From Thermoleophilia bacterium (GTDB lineage Bacteria > Actinomycetota > Thermoleophilia > Gaiellales > Gaiellaceae), in the NCBI GenBank assembly GCA_025930955.1, contig JAICNY010000005.1, forward strand, positions 1 to 38,105: a stretch of 38,105 bases of DNA, in the 5' to 3' direction. The position numbers were made by a program, and so were the translations under genes. Position 1 is the stretch's first letter. The number at the start of each line of letters is the position of its first letter. This document shows positions 29,376-33,297 of this stretch, piece after piece. The notes under the pieces were generated by a model. That model did not search any database, was not told where the DNA came from, and saw only the letters and a program-made list of their open reading frames with translations.

Positions 29376-29388
29376 GCGCGGTCGTCAC

Positions 29389-29394
29389 TACAAT
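29389..29394 (+). promoter_or_regulatory. -10 element for efp
   Basis: TACAAT ends eight bases before GTG 29403, predicting a leader of zero to two bases. Confidence 0.6.
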
Positions 29395-29402
29395 CCTCGC
29401 CC

Positions 29403-29969
29403 GTGGCCGAGCAGGTCTCCACGAACCAGTTCAAGAACGGGATGCACGTCCAGGTGGACGGGCAGATCTGGCGGATCGTCGAGTTCCAGCACGTGAAGCC
29501 CGGCAAGGGCGGCGCGTTCGTCCGCACGAAGCTGAAGAGCGTCGAGACCGGCTCCGTCGTCGACAAGACCTTCCGCGCGGGCGAGAAGATGCCGCGGATC
29601 CGCACGGAGACGAAGAGCGTCCAGTACCTCTATGACGCGGGCGACGAGGTCGTCTTCATGGACGAGGGCTCGTTCGAGCAGATCAACCTGCTCCGCGCCG
29701 ACGTCGGGGACGAGCTGCCGTACCTGCAGCCGTCGTCCTCGGTCCAGCTCCTGCTCGTGGACGGGAAGCCCGCCGGGATCCAGCTTCCGGCGTCGGTCGA
29801 GCTCCAGGTGACGGAGACCGAGCCCGGCGTCCGCGGCGACACGGTCTCGAACGTGACGAAGCCCGCGACTCTCGAGACGGGGGCGGTCGTCCAGGTCCCG
29901 CTCTTCGTCGACGTCGGCGAGCGGATCAAGGTCGATCCGCGCGAGGGCCGCTACATCTCCCGCGCTTAG
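29403..29969 (+). CDS. efp: translation elongation factor P
   Basis: The 188-residue protein has three beta-barrel domains of normal length. It begins VSTNQFKNGMHVQVDGQIWR and carries the tip loop HVKPGKGGAF, where K35 corresponds to the lysine modified in some bacteria. The third domain contains KPATLETGAVVQVPLFVDVGER and ends in the GRYISRA signature. EF-P relieves ribosomes stalled at polyproline; the nine prolines of MltG nearby would be such a substrate. The start is GTG 29403. Its TAG stop supplies the first three bases of the next gene's -10 box. Confidence 0.97.
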   Translation: MAEQVSTNQFKNGMHVQVDGQIWRIVEFQHVKPGKGGAFVRTKLKSVETGSVVDKTFRAGEKMPRIRTETKSVQYLYDAGDEVVFMDEGSFEQINLLRADVGDELPYLQPSSSVQLLLVDGKPAGIQLPASVELQVTETEPGVRGDTVSNVTKPATLETGAVVQVPLFVDVGERIKVDPREGRYISRA

Positions 29970-29972
29970 ACT
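29967..29972 (+). promoter_or_regulatory. -10 element overlapping the efp stop codon
   Basis: TAGACT begins with the efp stop codon TAG (29967-29969) and ends exactly six bases before ATG 29979. The next gene can therefore be transcribed on its own as a leaderless mRNA. Confidence 0.6.
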
Positions 29973-29978
29973 GCGCCC

Positions 29979-31802
29979 ATGGCCGCGCTCGTCGACACGA
30001 CGATCCGGCTCCTCTCCCAGGAGCCGCTCGCGGGGCGCGTCCAGACGGCGCGGCTTCTCGAGGTCGCCGACGGGCTCGACCGGGCGGGGTTCGCGGCGCT
30101 CGAGGTGACCGGCGGCGGCTGCTTCGACGCGGCCGTGCGGCGCGGCGTGGAGAGCCCGTGGGAGCGGATCCGGACGCTGCGCGCGCGCTGTGAGACGCCG
30201 CTCGGGATGGCGCTCCGCGGCCGCTTCCTCGTCGGGTCGCGCCCGCTCTCGAGCGACGTCGTGCGCCGCTTCGTGAAGACGGCGGCCGCGAACGGGATCG
30301 ACGTCTTTCGGATCCACGATCCGCTGAACGACCTCACGAACCTCCGCGAGGCGGCCGAGGCGATCCACGCGGCCGAGAAGGAGCTCTCCGTGGGGCTCGT
30401 GCACAGCCCCGGGCCGGCCGACGCGACCGACGCACTGCTCGAGCGCGCTCAGCATCTCGCCGACCTCTCGCCCGCCCGCGTCCTCATTCACGATCCGACC
30501 GGGTCGCTCGACCCCGCGACGGCCCGCGAGCTCGTCGAGCGTGTCCGGGAGCTGAGCGGGTTGCCGGTCGGGCTGTACGTCCAGGGCGCAGGGGGCTCGG
30601 CGCTCGCCTCGGCGCTCGAGGCCGCGCGCGCCGGCGCCGACCTGATCGCGTGCGCGATCTATCCGGTCGCGCTCTCGCTGTACCGAGTTTCGGCGGAGTC
30701 GGCCGCGCGCTCGCTCGCCGGGCTCGGCCAGGACCCGGGGGTCGACCTCGACCTGCTCTGGGAGGTGTGCGAGCTCGTGGACGACGCGATTGGCGAGGAG
30801 CCGGTGGCGCCGCTCTCGCCGCGCGTCGCGGTGCGGGCGGCCGAGCACAGCCTGCCGGCCGGGCTCGTCGCCGAGCTCGACGCCCATCTCCGCAGCCAGT
30901 CGTTCGGCGACCGGCTCGACGCGGTCCTCGAGGAGCTGACCGCGATCCGCCGGGAGGCAGGCTGGCCCCCGCTCGCGTCGCCGATCGGGCAGGTGCTCGG
31001 CTCGCAGGCACTCATCCATGTGCTCTCGGGGGCGCGCTGGCAGCTCGTCGTGGACGAGCTCCGCGACCTCGTGGAGGGCCGCTACGGGTCGCCGCCGGGC
31101 GAGATCGACCCGGCCGTGCGGCGCGCCATCAGCCTCGTCCGCGAGGCCGGGCCCGCGGACGGGGAGCCGCCCGTGGAGCTCGACGCGCTCCGCGAGCACG
31201 CCGAGGGCATCGCCGCGAGCGAGGAGGAGCTGCTCCTGCTCGCGCTCTTCGGCGACCAGGCGGAAGGCCTCCTGCGCGCGATCCGCGCCCGCGGCCGCCG
31301 CGACGAGGACGCGGCCGGCGGGCTGGGGCGCAGCGAGTCGGAGCGGCTCCGCGACCTCATCCGGGTCGTCCAGGAGTCCGGGATCGGCGAGCTCACGATC
31401 GAGGAGGGCGAGTGGCGCGTGACCGTCCGCCGCCAGGCGGAGGGCGCGACCGTCGCGGCGCAGGCGCCGCTCGTCCCGGCCGCGGCGGACGACGGCGACG
31501 GCCTCCCGGAGGCCCCGCTCCCGCCGCCCGTGAGCGACATGATCCGCGTCGAGGCCCCGATGGTCGGGACGTTCTACCGCGCCCCGTCGCCGGGCGCGCC
31601 GCCGTTCGTCGAGGCGGGCGATCTCGTCACACCGGGCCAGACGCTCTGCATCCTCGAGGCGATGAAGCTCATGAACGAGGTGAAGGCGGACAGCGAGGCG
31701 CTCGTTCGCACGATCTGCGTCGAGAACGCGCAGGCGGTCGAGTACGGCGAGCTGCTCTTCGAGCTCGAGCCCCTGAACGGCCGCCCGCTCGACGCGGTGT
31801 AG
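29979..31802 (+). CDS. degenerate PycB-type carboxyltransferase fused to biotin carboxyl carrier (AccB)
   Basis: This 607-residue chain has three parts. Residues 1-250 align without gaps to the TIM barrel of pyruvate carboxylase/PycB (DTTIR, ALEVTGGGCFD, NGIDVFRIHDPLND). Residues 280-385 match the PYC/OADA domain (SPIGQVLGSQALIHVLSG). Residues 450-607 are AccB, with SERLRDLIRVVQESGIGELT and the biotin site EAMKLMNE (K563). In the barrel every known metal ligand is replaced: Asp of DTTLRD by L11, the carbamylated Lys by H171, and the two His of HxH by Y200 and Q202. It is thus probably inactive as a carboxyltransferase. efp upstream and accC-nusB downstream place it where accB normally lies. 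A shorter start giving AccB alone is not indicated. Confidence 0.9.
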   Translation: MAALVDTTIRLLSQEPLAGRVQTARLLEVADGLDRAGFAALEVTGGGCFDAAVRRGVESPWERIRTLRARCETPLGMALRGRFLVGSRPLSSDVVRRFVKTAAANGIDVFRIHDPLNDLTNLREAAEAIHAAEKELSVGLVHSPGPADATDALLERAQHLADLSPARVLIHDPTGSLDPATARELVERVRELSGLPVGLYVQGAGGSALASALEAARAGADLIACAIYPVALSLYRVSAESAARSLAGLGQDPGVDLDLLWEVCELVDDAIGEEPVAPLSPRVAVRAAEHSLPAGLVAELDAHLRSQSFGDRLDAVLEELTAIRREAGWPPLASPIGQVLGSQALIHVLSGARWQLVVDELRDLVEGRYGSPPGEIDPAVRRAISLVREAGPADGEPPVELDALREHAEGIAASEEELLLLALFGDQAEGLLRAIRARGRRDEDAAGGLGRSESERLRDLIRVVQESGIGELTIEEGEWRVTVRRQAEGATVAAQAPLVPAAADDGDGLPEAPLPPPVSDMIRVEAPMVGTFYRAPSPGAPPFVEAGDLVTPGQTLCILEAMKLMNEVKADSEALVRTICVENAQAVEYGELLFELEPLNGRPLDAV

Positions 31803-31852
31803 CCGTGGCCGCCGTGGCCACACGTCGCCGGGGCCGGCCGCTCGCCACCCAC

Positions 31853-31878
31853 CGCTTCGAGCGTAACCCGGCGAAGCG
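31853..31878. other. hairpin between the AccB fusion and accC
   Basis: CGCTTCG (31853-31859) and CGAAGCG (31872-31878) form a perfect seven-pair stem with a 12-base loop. The 136-bp gap also has a nine-base tandem duplication (CCGTGGCCG/CCGTGGCCA, 31803-31820). No clear promoter or T-run is present, so a role in attenuation or mRNA processing is only a guess. Confidence 0.45.
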
Positions 31879-31938
31879 CGCGCATGGTGACGTCGTCGTG
31901 CCGGAAGCGTGGCGACTCGTCCACGGGCGGGCCCGACG

Positions 31939-33293
<1,355 letters not shown>

Positions 33294-33297
<4 letters not shown>

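Follow-up and report, generated by a model that had tools for sequence, protein, structure and literature searches.

The gene in the accB position of the window (the whole stretch of 38,105 nucleotides of Thermoleophilia DNA analyzed here) raises the question of why a biotin carrier should be fused to a carboxyltransferase barrel that no longer has its metal ligands. A sequence-only reading of this DNA had described, between efp and accC, a single chain of 607 residues made of a barrel, a PYC/OADA domain and a complete AccB, and had proposed that the barrel is a pseudoenzyme retained as a structural or allosteric part of an acyl-CoA carboxylase, or as a sensor of its substrate. In the current study, this proposal is examined through profile matches, orthologues, selection, trees, gene content and predicted structures.

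Architecture and genomic setting

The open reading frame and the profile matches agree with the single-chain architecture (Table 1). In Pfam, the barrel gives a weak HMGL-like match at residues 4–267 (29.7 bits against a cut-off of 29 bits), followed by matches to PYC_OADA at residues 289–436 and Biotin_lipoyl at residues 524–596. Among the NCBIfam profiles, that of PycB (NF006761) spans the whole chain with 398.6 bits, just below its cut-off of 402, and that of oadA scores 326.7 bits, below its cut-off of 756.5; TIGR00531 (AccB) is matched at residues 456–597, over model positions 5–155 of 156, with 134 bits (above its cut-off of 115.2). By inference from E. coli AccB, the helix and hairpin at the start of the AccB part are expected to be the AccC-binding element. 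The fusion fills the slot X in the gene order aroC-aroKB-M24 peptidase-efp-X-accC-tlyA-nadK. An 859-residue frame opposite the whole gene (29388–31967, minus strand) is unsurprising at so high a G+C content and was not taken as a gene.

Table 1. Positions in the window of the fusion gene, its domains and diagnostic codons, and its neighbors
Feature	Position	Strand	Evidence
accB-slot gene, 607 aa: pseudo-carboxyltransferase barrel, PYC_OADA and complete AccB	29979..31802	+	ORF, Pfam, NCBIfam, gene order
PycB/OadA-type TIM barrel without metal ligands, aa 3–285	29985..30833	+	Pfam, alignment, models, omega
PYC_OADA domain, aa 286–440; sole one found in the genome	30834..31298	+	Pfam
AccB N-terminal helix and beta hairpin, aa 451–485	31329..31433	+	TIGR00531 from residue 456; model
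Biotinyl (BCCP) domain, aa 521–598, with EAMKLMNE	31539..31772	+	Pfam, NCBIfam
Codon of the biotin lysine K563	31665–31667	+	EAMKLMNE motif
AccC biotin carboxylase, presumed partner of the fusion	31909..33297	+	Pfam, NCBIfam, gene order
efp, conserved upstream neighbor; start approximate	29412..29969	+	Pfam, gene order
Codon L11, replacing the metal aspartate	30009..30011	+	Alignment
Codon H171, replacing the carbamylated lysine	30489..30491	+	Alignment
Codons Y200-V201-Q202, replacing the metal-binding His-x-His	30576..30584	+	Alignment
Codon A298, replacing the Thr/Ser proton relay; PGGMxS to PAGLVA	30870..30872	+	Alignment

By sequence and fold, the closest solved structure is PycB of the two-subunit pyruvate carboxylase of Methylobacillus flagellatus (5KS8; PMC5059739), which likewise carries barrel, PYC_OADA and biotin domain on one chain with the biotin carboxylase separate. 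The window chain differs from PycB in lacking the metal ligands and the proton relay, in lying in the efp-accC slot beside AccC, and in its C-terminal part, where a complete AccB takes the place of the PycB linker and BCCP. Its TIGR00531 match, its slot, its AccC neighbor and the presence of AccD/AccA in the genome are those of the AccB (BCCP) of a bacterial acetyl-CoA carboxylase, although an ordinary AccB is without the approximately 450 extra N-terminal residues that form the pseudo-carboxyltransferase. Transcarboxylase 5S and the oxaloacetate decarboxylase alpha subunit share the barrel fold (TM 0.84–0.85) but are active metal enzymes and lack the N-terminal region of AccB. The central domain of eukaryotic acetyl-CoA carboxylase is also a large non-catalytic portion of such an enzyme (PMC4833862); it is a different domain and is cited as an analogy only, with no homology claimed. 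A search of the open-access literature turned up neither a pseudo-carboxyltransferase AccB nor a carrier common to pyruvate and acetyl-CoA carboxylases. The component families are known; the arrangement and the repeated loss described below appear to be new.

Loss of the catalytic residues

The barrel was aligned with Propionibacterium shermanii transcarboxylase 5S, oxaloacetate decarboxylase and the two-subunit pyruvate carboxylase, and the alignment is free of gaps around the site. The metal ligands D23, K184, H215 and H217 (5S numbering) align with L11, H171, Y200 and Q202 of the window chain, and the Thr/Ser of the PGGMxS/T motif (T882 in R. etli pyruvate carboxylase) has become A298. Comparison with solved relatives thus confirms the earlier claim that all four ligands are gone from an otherwise gap-free site. 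Also as claimed, the chain still has R10, Q14 and R80, the pyruvate-contacting residues in known enzymes.

The same state was found throughout the order to which the window belongs. Across 63 sequences from three families, with relatives 46–73% identical to the window chain, position 11 is Leu, Ile or Val, position 171 is His, Asn, Leu, Asp or Ser and never Lys, position 200 is Tyr or His, and position 202 is Gln in 63/63; position 298 is Ala in 54 of the 63, and R10, Q14 and R80 are invariant wherever they are covered. The group with intact sites has R-D-x-x-Q, K, H-x-H and S/T at the corresponding positions. Such uniform ligand loss is far beyond chance or sequencing error, and the orthologues rule out a local oddity of one genome. 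The alignment of relatives by which the sequence-only reading was to be judged therefore gives four uniformly non-catalytic positions, together with a conserved fold and a conserved K563.

A site stripped of one chemistry may have acquired another, and the pocket could hold new ligands, for example at H113, H171 and Y/H200. At position 113, where the intact group has phenylalanine, 58 of 62 sequences have histidine, and H113, H171, H200 and Q202 occur together in four close relatives of the window chain. However, position 171 is leucine in three sequences of family f3 and Asn, Asp or Ser in another ten, no conserved acid or lysine has taken over from the lost ligands, and the proton relay is gone; we consider a re-wired enzyme very unlikely.

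Intact orthologues and other inactive sites

Intact PycB-AccB fusions with the same domains are found in other Thermoleophilia, Coriobacteriia and Clostridia, and they keep the full catalytic site that the window's order and family f5 do not. Within the class, assigned as Thermoleophilia because the named Thermoleophilia genome L006 sits inside f9 in the tree, the full active site is present in the same-slot genes of f9, f6 and most of f7. The intact fusion also occupies this slot in Coriobacteriia and other Actinomycetota, and in Clostridia the fusions adjoin accC. Gene order is alike in intact and inactive ("dead") types, and the intact relatives in the same slot provide built-in controls. 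In f6, four loci (L142, L143, L144, L147) have an intact fusion that no longer adjoins accC, and in two genomes (G098, G109) the biotin carboxylase lies on a separate contig from the fusion.

The inactive sites are not all alike. In f5, D11 is kept, and Q14, GG45-46, R80, the lysine and the His-x-His are lost; a third dead site, in the f7 genomes G142 and G105, has Ser for the aspartate, keeps the lysine and has D-x-D for His-x-His. An apparent loss of the barrel in f5 lineage g92 was rejected, as the barrel was found at a contig edge adjoining efp. Three f5 genomes (G066, G086 and G108, the last with its dead fusion read directly) encode, in a single long frame of 1135–1394 residues, a pyruvate carboxylase distinct from the fusion, which is consistent with replacement of the lost activity.

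Selection and predicted fold

The inactive barrel is under strong purifying selection. For the dead barrel, codon models gave omega values of 0.019–0.047 (window's order) and 0.028 (f5), as compared with 0.008–0.020 for the intact barrel; the biotin domains of the two dead groups gave 0.033–0.064 and 0.013, respectively. Because the tree lengths are large, synonymous sites are probably near saturation and the absolute values rough. Constraint on the dead barrel is as tight as that on the biotin domain, and some two to three times weaker than that on the intact barrel. Of the 283 barrel columns, 81 show no variation in the dead group (43 of these in a way specific to it), and at ten positions invariant in the intact group a different residue has become fixed; 38 of the 93 intact-invariant columns (approximately 41%) are kept, where the intact set includes one dead sequence (L009), counted there in error, that lowers the intact counts by one and affects none of the conclusions. 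Mean column entropy is 0.99 for the dead barrel and 1.00 for the intact barrel. Neutral decay is excluded by omega and column conservation, and the relaxed selection that would have marked the barrel as simply decaying was not seen.

The AlphaFold2 models of the window chain and of an f5 chain (mean pLDDT 87.5 and 86.4, respectively) both match the OadA carboxyltransferase 2nx9 with a TM of 0.85 (target-normalized), and the window model matches transcarboxylase 5S with a TM of 0.84; these matches cover barrel and PYC_OADA. The TIM barrel plus PYC_OADA fold is thus retained in the predicted window chain. With its catalytic residues lost across orthologues and its fold under purifying selection, the barrel is, as judged from sequence comparison, probably a conserved pseudoenzyme.

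Conservation of this kind bears on whether the barrel might be a passive relic, stuck upstream of AccB and unremovable without loss of translation or folding. AccB is C-terminal and presumably essential, and the fused barrel, dead or alive, is present in every checked lineage that keeps AccB-AccC, as a relic would be. Drift would then be expected, yet omega is 0.02–0.05 with the 81 invariant columns, and differently dead lineages have kept the fold alike, which makes a relic highly improbable.

The conserved pocket could instead act as a sensor, in which the metal-free barrel would bind a small carboxylate (pyruvate, oxaloacetate or similar) via R10, Q14 and R80 and regulate AccC or the carrier, so that the supply of pyruvate would be linked to fatty-acid synthesis. 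The 43 dead-specific invariant columns and the invariance of the three residues in the window's order would also fit a working ligand pocket. On the other hand, about two-fifths of the intact-invariant columns are kept anyway, so that the three kept residues are weak evidence (against this background their retention is statistically not strong), and an allosteric link is not known. Because f5 kept the barrel and lost Q14 and R80, sensing is less likely as a general answer; a substrate-sensing pocket is possible in the window's order, and the case is weaker for f5. Overall, we regard a sensor as unlikely, and the narrower version, in which the former pyruvate site of a shared-carrier ancestor became a metal-free pyruvate/oxaloacetate pocket controlling acetyl-CoA carboxylase, as slightly less likely still.

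Number of losses

A tree of six neighboring genes places f5 next to the window's order (support 99) and nests the dead f7 pair within intact f7. In the tree of the AccB part, f7 holds together (97) and a single clade of all dead forms is rejected (AU p 0.025), and the AccC tree gives the same result (99; AU p 0.0135). In the barrel tree, by contrast, the dead types cluster apart from the intact ones, and a grouping of the dead f7 pair with other f7 is rejected (AU p 0.001). Because these three other data sets disagree with the barrel tree, we read its dead grouping as a probable long-branch effect from relaxed sites. The best supported history would have the catalytic residues lost at least twice, namely in the window's order together with f5 and in a branch of f7. 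Taken at face value, the separation of all dead types in the barrel tree would suggest an ancient paralogue, a dead copy that arose once by duplication and was then sorted among families, which would change the history only. The nesting of the dead f7 pair within intact f7 by AccB part, AccC and neighboring genes argues against it, as does the finding of one fusion-type copy per compared genome, in the efp slot, and we judge a single ancient duplication to be quite improbable.

Gene content and carrier sharing

The genome of the window (95% complete) encodes adjacent AccD and AccA (contig C144), along with three biotin carboxylases and three further acyl-CoA carboxyltransferases. No complete AccB-type carrier other than the fusion was found in it, nor was another PYC_OADA or a PEP carboxylase. 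In six genomes with intact fusions (G065, G075, G102 and G124 of f9; G098 and G109 of f6), the fusion is the sole biotin/lipoyl domain detected, alongside one biotin carboxylase and one PYC_OADA, and the acyl-CoA carboxyltransferases are AccD and AccA only. With a single biotin domain, one carrier would therefore have to suffice for both carboxylations, and we infer from this gene content that the intact fusion serves pyruvate and acetyl-CoA carboxylation alike. The fusion is absent in families without a strong AccA match (f4, f8 and f10–f12, a few genomes excepted).

A probable pseudo-carboxyltransferase scaffold for acetyl-CoA carboxylase

The residue loss, the selection on the barrel, the status of the fusion as the sole complete AccB found in the genome and the presence of AccC and AccD/AccA support the core of the earlier proposal. 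In our probable, though by no means certain, explanation, the fusion acts as AccB in a four-part acetyl-CoA carboxylase with an obligate pseudo-carboxyltransferase scaffold, and it descends from an active PycB-AccB ancestor. AccC would charge biotin on K563, and the carboxyl group would be passed to acetyl-CoA by AccD/AccA, whose genes lie elsewhere in the genome. The barrel and PYC_OADA would have lost metal binding and pyruvate carboxylation and would together serve as an obligate scaffold, probably bringing two chains together as a dimer and keeping AccC and the carrier arm in place. In the two-subunit pyruvate carboxylase, carboxyltransferase dimers are joined to a biotin carboxylase dimer via a linker that runs from barrel to biotin domain (PMC5059739); in the window chain, the AccB N-terminal helix and hairpin occupies the place of that linker. 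Most simply, the barrel dimer would go on organizing the AccB-AccC assembly now that the pyruvate chemistry has gone, with AccDA carrying out the transfer. The scaffold role is reached by elimination, and the partner contacts are proposed.

The ancestor was probably a carrier common to both carboxylations: an active fusion in the same slot, which would have delivered carboxybiotin to its own barrel for pyruvate and to AccDA for acetyl-CoA. On at least two occasions the pyruvate chemistry would then have disappeared, the fold being kept by the essential function of AccB and by a barrel-based assembly. The A298 replacement, the intact same-slot orthologues, the repeated loss and the probable shared-carrier ancestor go beyond what had been read from the window itself. 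If this explanation is right, a catalytic domain became part of a different, essential enzyme on at least two occasions, and there are bacteria in which one biotin carrier serves pyruvate and acetyl-CoA carboxylase, physically tying anaplerosis to fatty-acid synthesis. The labels "pyruvate carboxylase subunit B" and "oxaloacetate decarboxylase" given by automatic annotation are misleading for the whole group.

Related loci with divergent arrangements

Genome G111 encodes a second, divergent fusion next to a biotin carboxylase (L236; C70:33482-34768), in which the Asp and His-x-His are kept, the carbamylated lysine is replaced by Ser and R111 by Trp; the same genome also encodes transcarboxylase 5S. 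Five f7 genomes (G068, G083, G094, G116 and G122; loci L255, L256 and L249-L254) have AccD and AccA, with strong AccA matches, and no biotin carboxylase, giving just weak carbamoyl-phosphate-synthase-like matches. Where the locus could be read in these genomes, efp is followed by asp23-nusB-dxs with X and accC gone, and elsewhere there is an operon for a 12S-5S-1.3S transcarboxylase. These bacteria may make malonyl-CoA by transcarboxylation, without ATP-dependent carboxylation of biotin.
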